A stretch of 36,446 nucleotides of DNA, from positions 1 to 36,446 of the forward strand of contig CAIYXB010000012.1 of assembly GCA_903930015.1 (NCBI GenBank). Direction: 5' to 3'. Made by a program: the position numbers and the translations under genes. The DNA comes from an uncultured bacterium (lineage in GTDB: Bacteria; Cyanobacteriota; Vampirovibrionia; LMEP-6097). The notes beneath the pieces are model-generated. The model worked only from the letters and a program-made list of their open reading frames with translations, was not told the DNA's origin and searched no databases. The stretch's first letter is position 1. Every line of letters starts with the position of its first letter. Shown piece by piece: positions 9,389 to 31,797 of this stretch.

Positions 9389-9823
9389 CTAAGCTTTTTT
9401 AACTTCTAATTTCAATTCTTCAACAACTTCTTTTTTGAAATTTTCTACTCTATTTTTAAAATCATTCACTTGAACTTCTGACATCCACAGACCTTTAAGT
9501 CTGTTTTTTGGGACTGTCTTTTTGATCATTGGTGGTCTTACACCTAGTAATCTCTCACGACAGAATTTATTTCCTTCACGAAAATGGCAATCACCAATCT
9601 GACAACCCATTGCAATAACTCCATCAGCACCTGAATTAAAAGCTGATTCAATCATACGTGGTTGAATCATACCTGAACACGGAACTTGGACTACATATGC
9701 ATTATCAACTCCGCTTAAATTACGTCCATGTAAACCAGAAAGCTCTCCTTCTAGATTCACACTTCTAGCACAAGCGATTACCATGACTTTTACGTTATCA
9801 ATATTTTTTTCTGTTTCCGACAT
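9389..9823 (-). CDS. MvhD/FlpD-like hydrogenase iron-sulfur subunit
   Basis: A 144-residue protein of the MvhD/FlpD family: VVQVPCSGMIQPRMIESAFN, GADGVIAMGCQIGDCHFREG and LKGLWMSEVQVNDF match the usual 'vPCsG.i.p..i..af..GADGV.v.GC..GdCHy..GN' pattern. Cys18, Cys49, Cys74 and Cys79 remain, but the Cys-rich N-terminal motif of methanogen MvhD (several Cys) is reduced to IACARSV. In methanogens MvhD passes electrons from hydrogenase to heterodisulfide reductase. Here no hydrogenase or HdrABC is nearby, and the gene follows a ferredoxin-fused cytochrome b, so it is probably an electron-transfer partner of that protein. The frame extends 13 codons upstream to an ATG at 9862, but those codons come from a REP-like sequence; the start at MSETEK is preferred. 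Confidence 0.85.
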   Translation of the reverse strand: MSETEKNIDNVKVMVIACARSVNLEGELSGLHGRNLSGVDNAYVVQVPCSGMIQPRMIESAFNSGADGVIAMGCQIGDCHFREGNKFCRERLLGVRPPMIKKTVPKNRLKGLWMSEVQVNDFKNRVENFKKEVVEELKLEVKKA

Positions 9824-9845
9824 AATTTTTACTAACCTTTTTATA

Positions 9846-9868
9846 GATTGCTTCGCTCGCAATGACGA
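9846..9868. repeat. Partial REP-like element
   Basis: AGATTGCTTCGCTCGCAATG followed by ACG is of the type 'ATTGCTTCGCTCGCAATGACG' found scattered between genes in many bacteria. A related longer element is at 21991-22087. It fills the gap between the cytochrome b-ferredoxin gene and the MvhD-like gene and creates a spurious upstream start for the latter. Confidence 0.5.
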
Positions 9869-9872
9869 ATTT

Positions 9873-11024
9873 TTAAGCAGCTACTGGCTCCGCTCCTTCT
9901 TCAAGTGCCATACGAATATCATCCATAACAACTGGTGATAAGTTAAATGGAAGCTCTATCGCATCAAAATTACAAGCTCCTACACACAAACCACACTCTG
10001 CACATCTTTCATCAATTACAATTGCAATTTCTTTGAATTTAGATCCATCATTTCTTGGCGCCATATAAATAGCTTCATATGGGCAATCAACAGAGCATAA
10101 CTTGCAACCAACACACTTATTTGCATTTACATTTGCAGCTTCATGATCTTTTGACTTAATTAAGCTTGGTAAAATAGTAACAACAACAAGAGCAGGTAAA
10201 ACAATTAGCCACGTTAATGGATAACCAACTGCTTTCATCACGGGGAAAATCCATAAATAAAACCAATCAATATCAAAATAAGTTGGCTCAACTGTGAAAT
10301 TAGCTTCAGGACCTGATGTTGCAGGGAACAGAGCCGACACAACAAGTACAATTCCAGCAAGTAAACATCCAATAGCCCAAGTAACATTTACAAGAGGTCT
10401 TGAAATTCTCATGTAATGAATCCAAAGCATTACTAACAAAGAAAGCGAAATACCTGCATGCAAGAAGAAAGACATAGACATCGTGTAGTTTGAAATCACG
10501 TTATCGTTAATAAATGCATGAGAAAGAGTTTCACCCACAAAAGGTAAAGCCCCTAGAAACTCTGACATCATTTTTACAATTATATATGATCTTTCATCCC
10601 AGACTAATATATATCCTGAGATACCGATGATAAGCATCATCACAGTCAAAGCAACTCCAGAATACCAAGCTATGATTCTATACTCTCTATATCTATCGGT
10701 TAAGTAAACCCTAAGTGCGTGAAGCCAAACAGCAAGCATCATAGCGTCAGCTGCGTATCGATGAATACCACGAATCATGTCCCCAAAAGGAATCTTTTGA
10801 GTTATATACTCAACGCTTTGATAAGCAGCTTCTAAAGTGCATGTATAGTAAGCAAAAAGTAGTAGTCCTGATAAAAACAGCATCCACATAAAGAAATTTG
10901 GGATTGCTCCATGATAATAAAGTACATTTTGCTCAGAGCCAAGGATCTTGTTTAGAATATCCTCTATCCTAAGTAAAACTTTTTGACCTTCCCTCACTAT
11001 CTTTGTTAACACTACCGATATCAT
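9873..11024 (-). CDS. Cytochrome b fused to a 2[4Fe-4S] ferredoxin domain
   Basis: Residues ~40-230 form the four-helix haem-binding half of a cytochrome b. The two His pairs are H88/H102 (RGIHRYAADAMMLAVWLHALR) and H189/H203 (FFLHAGISLSLLVMLWIHYM), each 14 apart, so both b haems can bind. A shorter C-terminal membrane part (~215-285) carries IDWF at the place of the PEWY quinol-site motif. Residues 304-351 form a bacterial ferredoxin with C304-x2-C307-x2-C310-x3-C314P and C341-x2-C344-x2-C347-x3-C351. The ferredoxin part would sit on the side of the last membrane segment, probably cytoplasmic. AGGAG lies 5 nt before the ATG. The MvhD-like gene follows. Probable role: moving electrons between the quinone pool or the b haems and soluble Fe-S carriers. 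Confidence 0.9.
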   Translation of the reverse strand: MISVVLTKIVREGQKVLLRIEDILNKILGSEQNVLYYHGAIPNFFMWMLFLSGLLLFAYYTCTLEAAYQSVEYITQKIPFGDMIRGIHRYAADAMMLAVWLHALRVYLTDRYREYRIIAWYSGVALTVMMLIIGISGYILVWDERSYIIVKMMSEFLGALPFVGETLSHAFINDNVISNYTMSMSFFLHAGISLSLLVMLWIHYMRISRPLVNVTWAIGCLLAGIVLVVSALFPATSGPEANFTVEPTYFDIDWFYLWIFPVMKAVGYPLTWLIVLPALVVVTILPSLIKSKDHEAANVNANKCVGCKLCSVDCPYEAIYMAPRNDGSKFKEIAIVIDERCAECGLCVGACNFDAIELPFNLSPVVMDDIRMALEEGAEPVAA

Positions 11025-11042: not shown

Positions 11043-11387
11043 TTATTTTGCTTTAGTTACCTCATAAGCTTCACTTGGTCTTTTGTTTGCAACAACAATA
11101 GCGAAGAATGTTGAAATTAATGCAAAACCTAAGCAAGCTGAATATAAAAGTGTTGATATTTTTTGAGATTTTGCAGGGTCAATCTCAATACCAAAAATGT
11201 TTGTAACCATATTTATATATTTTAGATTTTGGATGGTTCCTTCATCAAAATAACTTGGATCAGATCCAATCAGTTCAAAATAGTTCATCAAGAAAAACAT
11301 GAATCCAAAAAAAGCCAAGTTGAACAAAGCTACTGCAAGAGGTAGATAGAATGATGTAATGTCTTGTTTTTTAATTGATCCAATCAT
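11043..11387 (-). CDS. Small two-helix membrane protein of the cytochrome operon
   Basis: 114 residues with one hydrophobic helix at ~15-36 (LPLAVALFNLAFFGFMFFL) and another at ~82-102 (LLYSACLGFALISTFFAIVV). A polar loop of about 45 residues lies between. No Cys pairs or conserved His suggest a cofactor. It begins 1 nt after the stop of the previous gene and is followed 18 nt later by the cytochrome b-ferredoxin gene. Probably a structural subunit; not recognised. Confidence 0.7.
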   Translation of the reverse strand: MIGSIKKQDITSFYLPLAVALFNLAFFGFMFFLMNYFELIGSDPSYFDEGTIQNLKYINMVTNIFGIEIDPAKSQKISTLLYSACLGFALISTFFAIVVANKRPSEAYEVTKAK

Positions 11388-11388
11388 A

Positions 11389-11679
11389 TTAATTCGCCTT
11401 TAATTTAAACCTTTTATACATTGCTTCAAAAGGAGCAAAGCTCACTCTTAAATTATTATTCTTTTTTTCATCTGCATAGATCTCAAATGCAAGAAAAAAT
11501 AATGACACCATAAATGCCGTCAAAGAAATCACAACAACGCTATAACCCATGAATTCGTTACCTTGAGAGAAATACCTATGAGAGGTAAAGAATTTAGTAA
11601 TAGAAATCGTCGCAACAACAAAAGATATATAGAATATCCAATTTATCTTTTTATTTGAATCTCTGTTTTTAGTTGTCAT
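11389..11679 (-). CDS. Small two-helix membrane protein of the cytochrome operon
   Basis: 96 residues from the start MTTKNRDSNKK. Two hydrophobic helices (~13-30, IFYISFVVATISITKFF; ~43-66, YSVVVISLTAFMVSLFFLAF) and a basic C-terminal tail. The frame stays open further upstream into the cytochrome b gene (ATG at 11727), but ATG 11679 lies just after the cytochrome b TAA and gives normal operon spacing, so I use it. No cofactor motif; not recognised. With its neighbour at 11043 it separates the two cytochrome b genes. Confidence 0.65.
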   Translation of the reverse strand: MTTKNRDSNKKINWIFYISFVVATISITKFFTSHRYFSQGNEFMGYSVVVISLTAFMVSLFFLAFEIYADEKKNNNLRVSFAPFEAMYKRFKLKAN

Positions 11680-11683
11680 TAAT

Positions 11684-13186
11684 TTACTTACTACTCTCTT
11701 GAGAAATCTTTGGTCCATTATTTTCAAACAACCAAACTACAAACATTATCAAGAAAAACCCACCATAGAAAATCCAATTACGTCCCCAAGAACCATCAGC
11801 AAAGAAAGTCTCACCTAATACCTTTTCTAAAGGTAATCCAAAATAAGGCATAGTGTGTATTCTAGATAAATACAATAGTTGAAAGATGGTAAATGTAAAC
11901 ATTAATTTCCATCTATCAATATGAGCATATTGCTTTTGGGATAGGTAAACTCCAACTGCAACAATCATCACACTACCAAAAACCCAATAAGGTGGATCTG
12001 TATTAATATCTGCGATATTAAGAATAATCAAAATCGAAAAAACTAAAGCATTAATAGCACCCATTATTGATACACACATAACAACTGGTCTTTTATAAAT
12101 TTTCGTTTCATCGGATCTATCAAAGAAAGGCATGAAAAGTACAGTGGCTGGGATCAACATAGTAACTGCAGTTGCTAGAACTGGTTCAATATATTTATAC
12201 ATTTGATATAAAGCAAGGAAATACCAATCTGAAAGTATTGGTAAAGGAGTAACAGCTGGATTAGCACGAGCTCCAGATTCAGCTGGGAATATCATTGCTG
12301 CTGCTGCAATCATAGCAATTACCAAGAAACCTTCTGACCAAGGTAGATTGAAACGCTTTTTTTTGTTTGAATAGAAATACAATTCAACAACTATAAGTCC
12401 AATTGTTGAAAGCGCCATATGCATTGAATAAAATCTAGTAATAGTTGCTTGACCAATCGCAGATCCACCTAAAAGTATTTGTTGGGTAGTCATTCCTACA
12501 TTAAAGTTGATATATTGATTTAGCAGCTTCATATCAAGTAATATTCCACCTCCTTGTTCAACAGGGATACTAGGTAAACTTGAAGGCATACCCCATTCAA
12601 TCAGTTTATTTACAATTGTTGCACCAAGGAATGCTAAGTTTAGACCAAATTGATCCATGTATCCAGGAAAGGTAGCAAATACTTTTGTTGCCCAAAATGC
12701 TCTTTGATTCCAGATTAATAAATATCCTGATAGTCCAGAGTAAAAACCTAAAAGTAATAAGAAAAAACAAACCCAGAAATTTAACTCACGCTTACCTTTA
12801 TAATCAGCACAAATAACTTGTCTATAAAGCTTTAGAGTGCACATAATAATAAAAGCATCCGCTCCATATTTATGCATACCACGCACTAACCATCCCCAAG
12901 GAATACTTTCTTGAATTACACCAATACTAGAGTAAGCTTGCTCAGCTGTTGGTATATAAAACATCATCAAAAATGCACCTGTAGCAATCGTGACAATCCA
13001 TGTCAGCCACTGTAGTGGTCCCAATTTGTACCAGATATTTTGTTTTACTTTATCGACATATGTTTCATCAAAGAAATCAATATTTTTCAAACGAGCCATC
13101 ACAACCTTATTGATTACATCATCAATACTTGGTAATTTCACTTTTATAGATTCAACTAGATTTTTATTTTTTACTTCAGCAGACAT
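11684..13186 (-). CDS. Cytochrome b (bc1/b6f type) lacking the ligands of one haem
   Basis: A 500-residue cytochrome b with the N-terminal haem half and the subunit-IV-like half in one chain. Amphipathic N-terminus, helix A ~58-78, then RGMHKYGADAFIIMCTLKLY: His105 is present, but the partner position 14 residues on is Lys119. In helix D, His256 is present (SMHMALSTIGLIVVELYFY) but position 270 is Tyr and 271 Phe. The pair H105/H256 corresponds to the haem near the Rieske/quinol-oxidation side; the second haem's two ligands are both lost. The quinol-site motif reads SDWY (319-322) instead of PEWY. The loop before helix D is ~50 residues longer than usual, and extra helices extend the C-terminus. 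The start overlaps the Rieske stop (TAATG) with GGAGGT upstream, so the two are coupled. Its partner is probably the Rieske protein. Confidence 0.9.
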   Translation of the reverse strand: MSAEVKNKNLVESIKVKLPSIDDVINKVVMARLKNIDFFDETYVDKVKQNIWYKLGPLQWLTWIVTIATGAFLMMFYIPTAEQAYSSIGVIQESIPWGWLVRGMHKYGADAFIIMCTLKLYRQVICADYKGKRELNFWVCFFLLLLGFYSGLSGYLLIWNQRAFWATKVFATFPGYMDQFGLNLAFLGATIVNKLIEWGMPSSLPSIPVEQGGGILLDMKLLNQYINFNVGMTTQQILLGGSAIGQATITRFYSMHMALSTIGLIVVELYFYSNKKKRFNLPWSEGFLVIAMIAAAAMIFPAESGARANPAVTPLPILSDWYFLALYQMYKYIEPVLATAVTMLIPATVLFMPFFDRSDETKIYKRPVVMCVSIMGAINALVFSILIILNIADINTDPPYWVFGSVMIVAVGVYLSQKQYAHIDRWKLMFTFTIFQLLYLSRIHTMPYFGLPLEKVLGETFFADGSWGRNWIFYGGFFLIMFVVWLFENNGPKISQESSK

Positions 13187-13791
13187 TAAGAAATACCTCC
13201 AGACTCAAGCGAGCTTATAAAAATTCGTCCATCTTCAACTTTAAATATGAATTTAAATGGTGATCTTGGAGCAGGACCTGAAACTACTTTGCCTCTACCT
13301 TTTGTATCAAGTTGCATTGGATCATAAACAGATAAATGACAAGGACAAGCAAAAACTTTTTGCCCCGGAGGTGGAGTGTAGTTATATCCAGCAGCAACTT
13401 CAGCTTCAACAGGCACATAATTAAATACACAACCTAAGTGAGGACATACTCTTGAGAAGACAACGAAATTTGGGTATCCCTCTAAGTCTGGTGTTCTTAC
13501 GACAACTCCTGGTATAGTTTTTATTTGCTCACCAACTGATGTGTATTCCTTATTAGACTCTTGGAACATAAAATACTTAAAATCCCAAGTCCCGGCGAAT
13601 TCATTAATATCAAAACTTATTTCTTTTACAGGTGAAGGTTTATCTGGTCTTTTAAAAATTTCCGCAGTTGCTGTAGGTCCTGAACTAGGTTTTAAATATC
13701 TAACAAAAGGTGAAGCAAAAACAGCAGCTATTGTACCAACAACAGGTATTGCAAGTATTCCCTTTACAAAGTCACGTCTATCAAAATTCAT
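13186..13791 (-). CDS. Rieske [2Fe-2S] protein of a quinol:cytochrome c reductase
   Basis: Takes the first electron from quinol and passes it to cytochrome c. The N-terminus has a twin-arginine motif (DRRDFVKG, residues 4-11) and a single membrane anchor (~13-32), as expected for Tat-exported Rieske proteins. Cluster ligands are C116-P-H118-LG-C121 and C149-P-C151-H152, with the flanking Cys that form the stabilising disulfide. PGQKVFACPCHLSVYD and the GPAPRSP proline loop are typical. 201 residues is normal. The stop overlaps the cytochrome b start by 1 nt. Confidence 0.95.
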   Translation of the reverse strand: MNFDRRDFVKGILAIPVVGTIAAVFASPFVRYLKPSSGPTATAEIFKRPDKPSPVKEISFDINEFAGTWDFKYFMFQESNKEYTSVGEQIKTIPGVVVRTPDLEGYPNFVVFSRVCPHLGCVFNYVPVEAEVAAGYNYTPPPGQKVFACPCHLSVYDPMQLDTKGRGKVVSGPAPRSPFKFIFKVEDGRIFISSLESGGIS

Positions 13792-13794
13792 AAA

Positions 13795-14583
13795 TTATTT
13801 TACTCCACCTACAGATTTTTTATAACTTTCTAATTTTTCTCTTCCTACGTCAAGCCTGTCTTTTTCTTGAACATGGGAAAACTGCCTAACATATCGAACT
13901 AATTTCCAAATCATCACATCATCGAATTTTATCTTTTTATCGAAGTCGTATCTGTTATACCAAGCTGGCATTGCCGTCCATGGAATACCGTACTTAAGCT
14001 CATTAAATAACTTTTCGTCTGTTCTGGTATATAGTCTCTCTGTCATAGTGAAATTTGCAGGAGGTGGATATAAAGATTTGTGAAGATTACCATCTCCTTG
14101 TCCGCGCGTACCATGACAAACTGCACAGTTACCACCAAAGGTTGCATTCATATCAGAAAGTTCTTGAGAACCTTCTTTATAATAGCCAAGAACATTTGCT
14201 CTAAAGTATATTAGTGAATCCCACATCTCATCAACACTGAGCTTGCCATTACCCTTACCAGCGAAAGAATGCACTCCATCACCTTTACCACCACAAACAA
14301 ATTCAAATTGCTTTTCTGGTGTGACTTTCCTAAAAGCTTCTTTATAGCTAGCAGCAGGTGTATGACAAGAAGAACAATTTTGTTTAAAGACAGCTTCGCC
14401 TGTAACAAGTGATGGTGCATGAGAAGGATATCTAAAACTTGGACAAATTTTTCTGTTTACGTCAGACTCCCATTCGTGAATCAAGCTTGAAGCAAGACCA
14501 GTCTTGCTTGCAGCATTTGCAGAGGCAAAGCTTAAAGCTAAAATTATTGTCACTATAGTTCTTTTCATCATCATCAACTTCAT
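13795..14583 (-). CDS. Exported dihaem cytochrome c
   Basis: 262 residues with a cleavable signal peptide (MKRTIVTIILALSFASANA, cut near residue 24). Two haem-c sites: C70-SS-C73-H74 and C153-AV-C156-H157. The second domain has a probable axial Met in AMPAW (M205). The layout resembles two fused cytochrome c domains. It lies between the oxidase genes and the Rieske gene, with 4 nt to the latter, so it probably takes the place of cytochrome c1 or carries electrons from the Rieske centre to the oxidase. Several Met codons cluster at the start (residues 1, 4, 5, 6); the exact one is uncertain. Confidence 0.88.
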   Translation of the reverse strand: MKLMMMKRTIVTIILALSFASANAASKTGLASSLIHEWESDVNRKICPSFRYPSHAPSLVTGEAVFKQNCSSCHTPAASYKEAFRKVTPEKQFEFVCGGKGDGVHSFAGKGNGKLSVDEMWDSLIYFRANVLGYYKEGSQELSDMNATFGGNCAVCHGTRGQGDGNLHKSLYPPPANFTMTERLYTRTDEKLFNELKYGIPWTAMPAWYNRYDFDKKIKFDDVMIWKLVRYVRQFSHVQEKDRLDVGREKLESYKKSVGGVK

Positions 14584-14804: not shown

Positions 14805-15005
14805 TTAATCCTCTAGCATCTCAAATTTTGCACCTTCAATATCTTTAAATTGACCGCTTTCAAAAGCCCATAATGCAGCCATTGAAGCAAGAGCAAAAAT
14901 CAGAATACAAAAAATACAGAAAATCGCAATCCCTTCTTTATTGAAGATTGAAATAATCAAATCATTGAAATCAAAAGCAATTGCTCTAAGTTTATTAATG
15001 TCCAC
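14805..15005 (-). CDS. CcoQ/FixQ-like single-helix protein
   Basis: 66 residues with one helix (GIAIFCIFCILIFALASMAA) and an acidic end (FKDIEGAKFEMLED) resembling the '..F.eAA.lPFeD' tail of CcoQ. It begins at GTG 15005 inside the end of the ccoO gene (11-nt overlap), implying translational coupling. Placed after ccoO, as ccoQ is in standard ccoNOQP operons. The family match is weak because the protein is small. Confidence 0.55.
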   Translation of the reverse strand: MDINKLRAIAFDFNDLIISIFNKEGIAIFCIFCILIFALASMAALWAFESGQFKDIEGAKFEMLED

Positions 15006-16077
15006 CAGCTACTCCTTCAATTTCTCCGCCAGGGTTTGACTTATAAGTACCATTATCCTTCATGCGACTAATATTTTCATAAGTATCAACCAACCTTTGT
15101 GGTAGTGATGACTGATCTTCCCAATCCTTATCATTTATGGTCTGGAATTTCTCAATTATAACTTCTTTCTCTTGTGGCAATGTCTTCAAGTAAGCTACTA
15201 AGTACCACATTTGCTCAGGTGCTAGTTTTAATTTCCAGCGCGGCATTCTTGTTCCTGGTACACCCTCGGCTACTCTGTAATACCAAGTTTTATCACTGTA
15301 AGACTTATAGAAGGGTTCTGAAAAATTGGCAGGCTTCTTAGCCATTGCAAGAGCATTTGGACCATTCCCTAAACCATTAGTACCATGACAAACAGCACAA
15401 TTTTGTCTGAATATTCCAGCACCAGCATTTGCAGCGGCTGCACTGTCAACATTTGGTTTATGGTGCTCTGATTTTTTCCAGAAAGCAGTATCAGCTTCAG
15501 GGTAATAAGCTTCATAGATTTGCCTATTTTTTGGATCTTCAAATCTTTTTTGACCTAGTGACTGTATGTATTCAACAAGATCAGACATATCCTCATCGCC
15601 TAAAAAACTAAATGAAGGCATTATAGAACCTGGTGTATAAGCTCTTGGATCTCTCAAATGCCCAATATGCCAAGCGTCTGGAAGTTTTTGTCCTTCATTA
15701 CTTAAGTCAGGACCAGTTCTTGAAGTACCAAGAATGTTTGGAGTTTCATTTGCATAATCTCCAGCATAAACTCTTGAGCCAAAATCTCTATCTTGTGGAC
15801 GTACAAATTGTGAATGGCAATAAAAGCATCCTTCTTTGATATAAACCTTTCTACCACGACCTGCTGCGTTAGGGACTGGTATACCTTTGTCGTCTCTTAA
15901 TATCTCGCCCTTTTCATCTTTTTGAACATATTCCATTGCGTACTCGGACGGATGAATTTTCACCATAGTCATATCAGGAATAAGAACTACTACTATATAA
16001 ATTAGTGAAAAAGAAAAAATAACGACAAGAGCTGGTAGGACATATCCTCGCGCGCCAATTTTTTTATTATCAGACAT
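14995..16077 (-). CDS. ccoO: CcoO-type cytochrome c fused to a second cytochrome c domain
   Basis: Membrane-anchored electron-entry subunit of a cbb3-type oxidase. One N-terminal helix (~12-33) is followed by the CcoO domain with EGC84FYC87H88SQFVRP, GTSRTGPDLSNEG and PGSIMPSF (axial M153). A second haem-c domain follows: C227-AV-C230-H231, then GTRMPRW (axial M278). Standard CcoO has one haem and ends soon after residue ~200; CcoP normally supplies the extra haems. Here one CcoP-like haem domain is joined to CcoO, giving 360 residues. It starts 1 nt after ccoN. Confidence 0.9.
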   Translation of the reverse strand: MSDNKKIGARGYVLPALVVIFSFSLIYIVVVLIPDMTMVKIHPSEYAMEYVQKDEKGEILRDDKGIPVPNAAGRGRKVYIKEGCFYCHSQFVRPQDRDFGSRVYAGDYANETPNILGTSRTGPDLSNEGQKLPDAWHIGHLRDPRAYTPGSIMPSFSFLGDEDMSDLVEYIQSLGQKRFEDPKNRQIYEAYYPEADTAFWKKSEHHKPNVDSAAAANAGAGIFRQNCAVCHGTNGLGNGPNALAMAKKPANFSEPFYKSYSDKTWYYRVAEGVPGTRMPRWKLKLAPEQMWYLVAYLKTLPQEKEVIIEKFQTINDKDWEDQSSLPQRLVDTYENISRMKDNGTYKSNPGGEIEGVAGGH

Positions 16078-16078
16078 A

Positions 16079-17473
16079 TTATTTGCCCTCCTCTACAGGA
16101 ACAGCAATATCTAGCTGATCTTTTGGAGTGATTGAATTCTCACGCATTGTCATAAAAATATTGTATGCAAATAAACAGCTGCTTGCAAACATCATAGTTC
16201 CACCAATCGATCTAACCATCCACATTGGAACTAAGGTTAAGGACCATTGTGCAACAGGATAAGCTAGTGCCCACCCAACTGCCTGTTGCAAACCTGCAAT
16301 AGTAAGTGAAAAGAAAAACAAAGTGAATCCTACTAGCAAAAGCCAATAGTGCCACTTAACTAAGCGGACACTATAGATTCTTCTACCTGTCAACCTTTGA
16401 AGACCATAATACATAGCACCAATAACAAAGAAAGTAAAAGTACCTAGCAGCGCTACATGTGCATGCCCTACAACCCACTGAGTAAAATGGATATACCAGT
16501 TAACACCACGCATTGCTTGAAATGGACCTTGTATACAAGTTATAAAATACCAAAAAGCACCTGTTAAAACAAATCTTAGAGGCATATTGGTAGTAAGCAT
16601 CCACCAAGAACCTTTCATACTCATATAAAAATTAACTAGTACTGATATAACTGGGATTAGTAATGCTGCAGAAAAGATTACAGCTAGAGCTTTAAGCCAT
16701 TCTGGTACAGGAGACTGTAATAAGTGGTGAGTTCCAGTTGGTGCATAGAAAAAAGCTATAGTCCAAAAACCAAACATTGATAAACTATGACTCCAAACTG
16801 GTCTACCAGTCATTTTTGGAACCATATAGTAAGCAATTCCTACACCAAGTACTGTAAACCACATACCTAAAATGTTGTGTCCATAAAACCAGTTCAAGAT
16901 ACCATCATTCAACCCGTCCATAGCAACAAAGGTTCTATTTCCAACTAGATAAACTAGGGGCATCCAAAAGAAAGCACCCATAATGTACCAAACCGATACA
17001 TAAAGTTTTTTTACATTACGAGTGAGTACTGTTCTAAAAAGATTGTAAGAAAGCAATGCCAGTCCAACTAGAACCAAAATATCAAAAGGTTCTCTGTATT
17101 CAGCATATTCACGACCTTCTGTGTAACCATTTAGAAGTGAAATGAATCCAGCACCAATTACAAAATTCCAAACATAACAAGTAAAGTTGGCTAGTTTTTC
17201 AGAGAAAAGTTTAGTTTTACAAAGAGCTGGAATTATAAATAAGGCAGAACCAATATTTGCCATAGATAACCAACCAAAAGCAACTGTGTTCACGTGCGCT
17301 GGTCTGAGTCTTGTAAAAGAAAGTTGCTCAACTCCTTTGGTTAAATCTGGAAATGAAAATTCTAAAGCTCCTAAAAGCCCTGCTCCCATACCTATTACCA
17401 ACCAAAAAATGGCAGAGTACCAAAAAAATTTTGGTGAACTCCCTTCTTCGTTACTTAGAAATTTGTTTGACAT
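16079..17473 (-). CDS. ccoN: cbb3-type cytochrome c oxidase catalytic subunit
   Basis: Reduces O2 to water at the haem b3-CuB site and pumps protons, with high O2 affinity in this family. About 12 membrane helices. Ligands by homology: H60 (low-spin haem b, RPAHVNTVAFGW), H199 (CuB, YGHNILGMW), H249/H250 (CuB, TGTHHLL), H337 (haem b3) and H339 (low-spin haem) in VVGHAHVALLG. Y243, six residues before H249, is placed as the cross-linked Tyr of the C family. 464 residues is normal. First gene of the long minus-strand operon. The 167-nt gap upstream is AT-rich with only a weak TGGC...GCCA hairpin and no clear promoter or FNR site. Confidence 0.96.
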   Translation of the reverse strand: MSNKFLSNEEGSSPKFFWYSAIFWLVIGMGAGLLGALEFSFPDLTKGVEQLSFTRLRPAHVNTVAFGWLSMANIGSALFIIPALCKTKLFSEKLANFTCYVWNFVIGAGFISLLNGYTEGREYAEYREPFDILVLVGLALLSYNLFRTVLTRNVKKLYVSVWYIMGAFFWMPLVYLVGNRTFVAMDGLNDGILNWFYGHNILGMWFTVLGVGIAYYMVPKMTGRPVWSHSLSMFGFWTIAFFYAPTGTHHLLQSPVPEWLKALAVIFSAALLIPVISVLVNFYMSMKGSWWMLTTNMPLRFVLTGAFWYFITCIQGPFQAMRGVNWYIHFTQWVVGHAHVALLGTFTFFVIGAMYYGLQRLTGRRIYSVRLVKWHYWLLLVGFTLFFFSLTIAGLQQAVGWALAYPVAQWSLTLVPMWMVRSIGGTMMFASSCLFAYNIFMTMRENSITPKDQLDIAVPVEEGK

Positions 17474-30135: not shown

Positions 30136-31797
30136 ATGTCTTTTAAAGATTCACTTCCAGGAACAAGCGGTGGGGTTGCTAAATCAGCAATCAAAACTGT
30201 AACGGCTAATCGAAATCCTAACCGCACACCTACTGAAGCAAAACCACAAGAAGAAATTGACGCAGAAAAAAGAGAAGCAAATGAAGCTTTAAGAGCAGAT
30301 TTTCACGAAACAGTTGCAAGAGAATTTGCATCTAAAAATAATTCACTTAAACAATTTCAAAGAAGTCAACAAAACCCATTAGCTATGCTTGCAAGCATGC
30401 CAAATTCACAAGGATCTGGCAATTCTAATTCATCAACCCCCAAAGCACCTCAAAATCAAGAAATTAACAAGCCTGATTTAATAGACAATAAAACAGAAAG
30501 CCCTAGAATCAGCGCACTCCAGAAACCCTGGCAATCAAACAATTCAAGCTCAGATCAAAATTTAGAAAAATCTCGATCTCAGGATAATTCGAAAAGAAGT
30601 GAGGATGCTATTAAACTCCCAAAAGTATTAGCACATGATGCTGAAAGGCTGGCAGAGCTAAGAGTACTCTCTACTGGAGACTCAAGAGCACAGTCGCAGA
30701 CTCTCTTGAACAGCTACAAGAATAACAATGACAAACATTCGCTTGATCCATCAGCAGTAAGAAGATTAGTAGCTCATGGAATACCTTTTAATGAGGAGAA
30801 ATTCAATCCAAAGAACTCAGCTGCAGAAAATGATAAGACAATAAATGAAATAATTTCTGAACACAATACATCTGCATTAGCTAAACTTAGCGAAGCTCAG
30901 AAGATAGGAAATTTTTATTTAGAACTTGGCTTTTCCAAAAAGAATCATGATTATAGTCAACTCACGGCTAAACAATTCAAGGAATCATTTGATGATACAA
31001 AACAAGCCAAAGCAGATAGAGAGACTTTTATGGCAGGACCAAAAACTCCAGAGGCTATTGCCAAAGAAAATTCTCGCACTGATAAACTTGCTTTAATTTT
31101 ATTACCAGAAAAAGGTGCAACCGAATTTGATATGACAAGGGAAGTTGCAGATTTAAAAAGGCTTGGTTTTACAGCAGTTTTTACACAAATAGATAATGAA
31201 AATGGCTTAAAATTATATAACGATGATGGCTCTAAAACTCCAATAAAGAAATTAGCTGATGACGTTGGTGGATTTGGTTTGCTAGTAATGGGTGGACATG
31301 GACAAAACAGTAAAACACCTGCAATTAGATTTGGTGATAAACCTGATTCATCGAATATTAAAACAAGTGAACAGCTTGCCCAAGCAGAAAAAGCTTACCT
31401 AGATAAAACTGATTTTGAAGATGACAAAGGCATTAAAGCCTTCTTTCAAGACAAATCTATACTCAAAGAAGGTGGCACTCTTGCAAGTTGTTCATGTAGT
31501 TTCACAGGCAGCAGCTCTACAAGAGAGAATTACATAAAACCTGAGCAAAGTTTAGCAAAGATTTTTGAAGAATTAAGACCTGATGCTGATGTACTTGGTG
31601 CTTTTGATGAAGTAGATCCTCATGGTGAATTCAAACTTGCCGCCAATGGAAGACTAGAGCACACTACCATGAGAAGACTTGATGAACCTGAAGTTAAAGA
31701 AGATCTTATAGCATCTAGTGAAAATGATGTTAAAACTTCTGACTTCGATAAGCTTCTTGCAAACCTAGACATAGGCTTTGATGATTATGATTCATAA
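30136..31797 (+). CDS. Large protein with a caspase-like His/Cys pair
   Basis: 553 residues. Residues 1-180 are polar, low-complexity and probably disordered (rich in Asn, Ser, Gln, Lys, Pro), with no signal peptide. A helical middle follows. From ~315 there is an alpha/beta domain: KLALILLPEKGA, LKRLGFTAVFTQID, then GLLVMGGHGQ with His388 and GGTLASCSCSF with Cys452 (and C454). A hydrophobic strand followed by GHG, then another strand ending in a small residue and Cys about 65 residues later, is the arrangement in caspase/CHAT/clostripain-type peptidases (clan CD). The family is not recognised and activity is an inference. It starts 44 nt after grx4 without a clear ribosome site. Confidence 0.65.
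   Translation: MSFKDSLPGTSGGVAKSAIKTVTANRNPNRTPTEAKPQEEIDAEKREANEALRADFHETVAREFASKNNSLKQFQRSQQNPLAMLASMPNSQGSGNSNSSTPKAPQNQEINKPDLIDNKTESPRISALQKPWQSNNSSSDQNLEKSRSQDNSKRSEDAIKLPKVLAHDAERLAELRVLSTGDSRAQSQTLLNSYKNNNDKHSLDPSAVRRLVAHGIPFNEEKFNPKNSAAENDKTINEIISEHNTSALAKLSEAQKIGNFYLELGFSKKNHDYSQLTAKQFKESFDDTKQAKADRETFMAGPKTPEAIAKENSRTDKLALILLPEKGATEFDMTREVADLKRLGFTAVFTQIDNENGLKLYNDDGSKTPIKKLADDVGGFGLLVMGGHGQNSKTPAIRFGDKPDSSNIKTSEQLAQAEKAYLDKTDFEDDKGIKAFFQDKSILKEGGTLASCSCSFTGSSSTRENYIKPEQSLAKIFEELRPDADVLGAFDEVDPHGEFKLAANGRLEHTTMRRLDEPEVKEDLIASSENDVKTSDFDKLLANLDIGFDDYDS

Follow-up and report, generated by a model that had tools for sequence, protein, structure and literature searches.

A cytochrome b predicted to hold a Qo site and haem bL only, encoded beside a complementary cytochrome b with a ferredoxin domain

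The window, the whole 36,446-nucleotide stretch of DNA that was analysed, belongs to a genome of Vampirovibrionia (Cyanobacteriota), a non-photosynthetic relative of cyanobacteria with Caenarcaniphilales as neighbours. On its minus strand lies an operon that includes two cytochromes b, here called b1 and b2, with a Rieske protein and components of a cbb3-type oxidase. In the order of transcription, the genes are:

16079 to 17473, minus strand: CcoN-like catalytic subunit of a cbb3-type oxidase (PF00115; TIGR00780 match below cut-off)
14995 to 16077, minus strand: CcoO-like subunit with a second cytochrome c domain (PF02433, PF00034; two CxxCH in 57/57)
13795 to 14583, minus strand: dihaem cytochrome c (PF13442/PF00034; two CxxCH in 66 of 78 relatives)
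13186 to 13791, minus strand: Rieske [2Fe-2S] protein (PF00355/TIGR01416; CPH[LM]GC and CPCH[LF]S[VI][YF] motifs in 79/79)
11684 to 13186, minus strand: b1, a cytochrome b of 500 aa (PF00033 and PF00032; fold matches in the PDB; a conserved family)
11389 to 11727, minus strand: small conserved hydrophobic protein between b1 and b2 (no Pfam or NCBIfam match; recurs in many loci)
11043 to 11387, minus strand: second small hydrophobic protein (near relatives only)
9873 to 11024, minus strand: b2, cytochrome b6-like with a C-terminal 2x[4Fe-4S] domain (PF00033 and Fer4 in 46/46, PF00032 in 0/46)
9389 to 9823, minus strand: FlpD/MvhD [2Fe-2S] adaptor (PF02662 above cut-off; four Cys in 70 to 71 of 71)

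The two small hydrophobic proteins belong to no known family and may be subunits of the complex; the 112-aa one has relatives in loci throughout Vampirovibrionia. Elsewhere in the window, a 553-aa open reading frame (30136-31797, plus strand) has GGHG and SCSC-like stretches and might, at a guess, encode a caspase- or CHAT-like peptidase.

Like the cytochromes b of the bc1 and b6f complexes (PetB, QcrB), b1 has their fold, the His pair of haem bL, a Rieske partner and the elements of a Qo site, with SDWY for PEWY; unlike them, it lacks the haem bH ligands and the Cys of the n-side haem, has relaxed the helix-C glycine of haem bH, and is accompanied by a complementary second cytochrome b. Among known structures, its AlphaFold model matches bc1 cytochrome b; pLDDT is above 90 for the greater part of helices A to D. 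The key positions of b1 are given below with their states in 84 non-redundant b1 homologues and, as controls, in 25 PetB proteins of photosynthetic cyanobacteria:

12872 to 12874, minus strand: His105, haem bL ligand on helix B; His in 84/84
12830 to 12832, minus strand: Lys119, position of haem bH ligand 1 on helix B; Arg in 74 and Lys in 10 of 84, His in 25/25 PetB
12767 to 12769, minus strand: Cys140, position of the helix-C packing glycine of haem bH; Ala 39, Gly 23, Cys 10, Ser 6 and Leu 6 in b1, Gly in 25/25 PetB
12683 to 12727, minus strand: Qo-site cd1 element, GYLLIWNQRAFWATK; entropy averages 0.04 bits in b1 and 1.04 bits in b2
12419 to 12421, minus strand: His256, haem bL ligand on helix D; His in 84/84
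12383 to 12385, minus strand: Glu268, an invariant acid beside the vacated bH site; Glu in 84/84, Leu in 24/25 PetB
12377 to 12379, minus strand: Tyr270, position of haem bH ligand 2 on helix D; Tyr 74, Phe 7 and Leu 3, His in 25/25 PetB
12221 to 12232, minus strand: SDWY, the PEWY-type Qo motif; S319, D320, W321 and Y322 each in 84/84

Alignment of b1 to cytochrome b6 from the PDB placed K119, on helix B (GMHKYGADAFIIMCTLKLYR), over the second haem ligand, the His of 'LHVFR', and H105 and H256 over two other haem ligands; columns 105, 119, 256 and 270 were His in all 25 PetB controls. From established bc1/b6f knowledge, we take the second His on each of helices B and D to mark the haem bH site on the n side, at Qi, and the two His kept in b1 to be the ligands of haem bL, near Qo. 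The claim of the original prediction that both lost ligands belong to a single haem, with the Qo-side haem retained, is thus borne out by cytochrome b6 and by the 25 PetB, the haem being bH; H105, K119, H256, Y270 and F271 also stand where it had numbered them, on a gene whose strand it had left unstated and which is the minus strand. The Lys that it saw at 119 is there in the window protein, though most homologues have Arg. As judged from the alignment, the lost pair is better called Arg/Lys plus an aromatic residue, accompanied by the invariant Glu268, with Lys119 as a minority state. A salt bridge between Arg/Lys119 and Glu268 would presumably fill the empty haem slot of b1. Residue 271, Phe in the window, is Phe, Ile or Tyr among the 84 homologues.

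No shifted or substitute ligand was found in b1: the b1 encoded here contains just four His (105, 256, 422 and 444), no His, Cys or Met besides H105 and H256 is invariant among the 84 homologues, and alignment with cytochromes b and with relatives revealed no shifted His anywhere in the family. The four His needed for two b haems in one cytochrome b were incomplete in 84/84 b1, and the full set was present only in b2. Column 140 is without Gly in 61 of 84 b1, which have Ala, Cys, Ser or Leu there; the bL glycine G154 is present in 84/84, and b1 retains the second glycine of haem bH, G56 on helix A. Nor does b1 have the helix-A Cys of the b6f-type haem cn/ci: column 54 is Ala, Gln, Thr, Ser, Leu or Lys, and Cys in 24/25 PetB. 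These observations bear on the idea that b1 does bind a second b haem through unusual ligands, namely Lys/Arg119 with Tyr270 or Glu268. In other proteins Lys and Tyr can serve as haem ligands, and Glu268 is invariant, but residue 119 is mostly Arg (74/84), which is not a usual haem ligand, residue 270 can be Phe or Leu, the packing glycine is relaxed, and no other His, Cys or Met is invariant; we regard this arrangement as very improbable.

The 84 homologues come from Vampirovibrionia and one other phylum, with identity down to about 37%, and because both bH ligands are missing in 84/84 of them, chance and decay are excluded as the cause. The same ligand picture was seen in 25 homologues from a separate whole-genome search, which are partly the same genes as the 84. 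In the second phylum, whose records are titled Armatimonadetes, Terrabacteria ANGP1 and similar, the trait was found in 38 of 43 genomes, with the residues checked in the loci that were fetched; six loci of this group were traced to genomes, and these were confirmed as one phylum. Relatives returned by a scan of genome contigs with exact peptide patterns likewise appear to fall within these two phyla. Absence of the bH ligands is, on these alignments, a family trait and not decay, as the original prediction had supposed in calling b1 a working gene with a functional loss; its conservation across two phyla and its invariant Qo motif agree with that view. A decaying or misassembled b1 has nothing in its favour beyond the residue changes themselves, and the open frame, the 71 positions that are invariant across two phyla and the intact operon make it a negligible prospect. 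The b1 sequences form one clade in the tree (support 99/98), so the bH ligands need have been lost only once. Length varies by lineage, from about 500 aa here to 600-670 aa in many Obscuribacterales and 380-430 aa in the second phylum; the longer lineages have a C-terminal extension at the 3' end of b1 (loci L018-L068).

At the Qo site, b1 and b2 differ. The PEWY region has an entropy of 0.013 bits in b1 versus 1.23 in b2, while mean entropy over the whole protein is similar (1.14 in b1, 1.45 in b2). PF00032, the Qo-side half, matched 39 of 53 b1 and 0 of 46 b2; Fer4 matched 46/46 b2 and 0/53 b1. By these measures b1 is a cytochrome b with a Qo site and haem bL only, and the losses in the two proteins are complementary, b1 being without the bH site and b2 without the Qo motif.

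The b2 gene starts about 0.7 kb downstream of b1 on the same strand. Its AlphaFold model has a mean pLDDT of 85.5 and matches bc1 and b6f cytochrome b, and besides the ferredoxin domain it has two extra helices. All four haem-ligand His are present in 74/74 b2, and both pairs of haem-packing glycines are kept (G39/G53 and G123/G137). Features in and beside b2 are:

10719 to 10721, minus strand: b2 His102, haem bH ligand 1, kept in 74/74
10416 to 10418, minus strand: b2 His203, haem bH ligand 2, kept in 74/74
9972 to 10115, minus strand: ferredoxin domain of b2 with eight Cys (C304 to C351), of which seven are invariant and C314 is conserved to at least 90% (n=46)
9845 to 9865, minus strand: REP-like palindromic repeat TCATTGCGAGCGAAGCAATCT between b2 and FlpD

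A longer pattern related to this repeat recurs at about ten other places in the genome and is absent from a backwards control. The FlpD open reading frame as listed runs from a TTG start at 9862; because the repeat sits on that start, the ATG at 9823 is the likelier one. The ferredoxin domain of b2 and FlpD correspond to successive C-terminal parts of the HdrA2 model, the only parts of it with a strong match, and in one relative (G003:C225:16189-16857) a single HdrA2 match spans both parts, with a stop codon inside. From b2 to FlpD (9389-11024), the ferredoxin domain and adaptor therefore look like a cassette shared with HdrA minus its flavin body; they match the known HdrA2/MvhD module, which here lacks the flavin body and is attached to a cytochrome b. 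No HdrA flavin body scored over cut-off in this genome (a MAG that is 97% complete) or in relatives, and a search for HdrA as the partner of FlpD found none here.

Linkage of the three genes was strict. Wherever the contig extends far enough, b2 lies downstream of b1 in the same orientation (75 of 75 loci); in the five other loci the contig ends within 213 bases of b1. Of 60 relatives, 39 had both b1 and b2 and 20 had neither; the remaining one had only b2, which begins 395 bases from a contig end. FlpD was present as one copy in each of 15 genomes with b1 and b2 and in none of six tested genomes that lack them. The second phylum keeps Rieske, b1, b2 and FlpD, and the cbb3 genes upstream in this operon were not seen there. 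Both b1 and b2 are monophyletic, and their pairwise distances are correlated (mirror-tree r = 0.94), as would be those of any two genes in one operon; co-occurrence is likewise expected for any such pair. The possibility that the genome encodes another, canonical cytochrome b at a different place was considered and rejected: b1 and b2 are the sole Pfam cytochrome b matches, and none was found by similarity. Some relatives (G001:C22, G004:C8, G009:C1) have a further cytochrome b of about 365 aa that is nearer the Pfam consensus than b1 or b2.

What the sequences establish is that b1 has lost the bH ligands and retained bL and Qo, and that b2 has both haem sites, Fe-S sites and a degenerate Qo and is tied to b1 and FlpD by co-occurrence and synteny. 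The original prediction had suggested that the electron path might be rerouted, possibly to the operon's other cytochrome b; pairing with a four-His, Qo-degenerate b2 does appear obligate, and the rerouting itself is best treated as a proposal. Because the two proteins carry the pattern of ligands and Qo sites of engineered, cross-inactivated bc1, we propose, with a probability of roughly 60%, that b1 and b2 form an asymmetric heterodimer in which electrons would hop from bL to bL and which would feed the cbb3-type oxidase. The two would be unlike halves of one Rieske/cytochrome b complex. With the Rieske protein, b1 would oxidise quinol, probably menaquinol, at its intact Qo site; the first electron would go to the Rieske protein, the dihaem cytochrome c and the oxidase, and the second to haem bL of b1. 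Since b1 has no haem bH, the transmembrane route inside it would be blocked, and the low-potential electron would move sideways to bL of b2 and on to bH of b2. From there it could leave through the two [4Fe-4S] clusters to FlpD on the cytoplasmic side or, somewhat less probably under this same proposal, reduce quinone at a Qi site of b2. We infer the heterodimer, the hop, the exit route and its direction from this pattern. As to the quinone, the genome yielded two radical SAM proteins resembling MqnC (E 7.5e-94 and 8.7e-83), with neither match shown to exceed the cut-off; three relatives do exceed it, and no MenD over cut-off was found. Menaquinone is likely made by the futalosine route. A Ser and a Tyr are known to raise the potential of the Rieske protein in bc1. 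Among the Rieske sequences of this family, 79/79 have the Ser and 67/79 the Tyr, and a Rieske protein of high potential would fit an exit at low potential.

If b1 and b2 were instead two separate machines, b1 and the Rieske protein would work without a Q-cycle, both electrons passing to the Rieske protein with bL as a temporary store, and b2 with FlpD would be an oxidoreductase between a cytoplasmic donor and quinone. For such a division, b1 alone suffices for the first oxidation of quinol, an electron in a bL-only cytochrome b has nowhere else to go, and b2 with FlpD resembles a self-contained redox arm. We nevertheless think it improbable given the strict adjacency in 75/75 loci of two phyla, the shared presence and absence, and the p-side haem ligands that b2 keeps without a working Qo, ligands of no use to a quinone reductase acting alone on the n side.

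A closer competitor keeps the heterodimer and gives it a shared, plain Q-cycle in which the electron ends on quinone at the Qi site of b2, with FlpD and the clusters adding electrons from the cytoplasm. Haem bH and the n-side arginines R105, R111, R116 and R206 are conserved in b2, as this would require, and FlpD normally joins a cytoplasmic dehydrogenase to an Fe-S/flavin protein (MvhD/HdrA), a role in keeping with the two consecutive parts of the HdrA2 model found here without the flavin body. Input of cytoplasmic electrons has also been proposed for ferredoxin-driven cyclic flow through b6f. Against this, an invariant Tyr (Y37) takes the place of the b6f n-side haem Cys in b2, and on balance we consider a shared Q-cycle unlikely, if less so than two machines. 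Inward electron flow into b2 is possible, as no HdrA body was found here and FlpD often passes electrons on from a dehydrogenase.

Returning to the preferred heterodimer, we favour exit through the Fe-S clusters and FlpD on two grounds: the clusters are built into b2 itself in 46/46, and, in the sections of the source available, anammox complexes of a Rieske/cytochrome b with an NAD(P) oxidoreductase (Kuste4569-4574, Kustd1480-1485) are proposed to reduce NAD(P) (PMC12954380). As described there, those complexes resemble the arrangement proposed for b1 and b2 in being b6-like, with a low-potential electron proposed to reach a cytoplasmic partner, and differ in that their cytochrome b forms a homodimer, carries both b haems and works with a flavin partner; those sections describe no asymmetric loss (PMC12954380). 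We put forward tentatively, at less than even odds, that the heterodimer is obligate and that its low-potential branch through Fe-S to FlpD amounts to a quinone-based bifurcation that reduces a cytoplasmic acceptor during O2 respiration.

Whether a bc1/b6f dimer needs bL-bL transfer has been argued for years and was tested with engineered asymmetric dimers. Czapla et al. combined a bc1 half that had Qo and bL and lacked bH with a half that had bH and lacked Qo, and bL-bL transfer occurred on the catalytic timescale (PMC4330944). In such cross-inactivated bc1 (R. capsulatus WB-BN and sphaeroides-capsulatus hybrids; PMC4330944), as proposed for b1 and b2, the bL-bL hop is the sole link; the former is a laboratory construct of near-identical halves, whereas b1 and b2 are natural proteins that diverged anciently, with Fe-S on the bH half. 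The operon itself is not new. Soo et al. 2017 reportedly described a complex III/IV operon in Melainabacteria, and an operon of the same kind, with petB and petC beside a C-type oxidase, is annotated either as subunits of b6f or as complexes III and IV in the parts of two papers that were accessible, which make no mention of missing bH ligands or a complementary pair (PMC6349859, PMC4040986). In the titles, abstracts and passages covered by a search of the open literature, the operon was thus already published, and neither the missing haem nor the complementary pair was found.

If the heterodimer is indeed obligate, every turnover would need a bL-bL hop. An asymmetric dimer seems to have arisen in this lineage and to have persisted in two phyla, which would make the bL-bL question testable in a natural enzyme. 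The arrangement also suggests that quinol oxidation by an O2-linked chain may be coupled to a low-potential partner in the cytoplasm, in cyanobacterial relatives that are important to the history of aerobic respiration.
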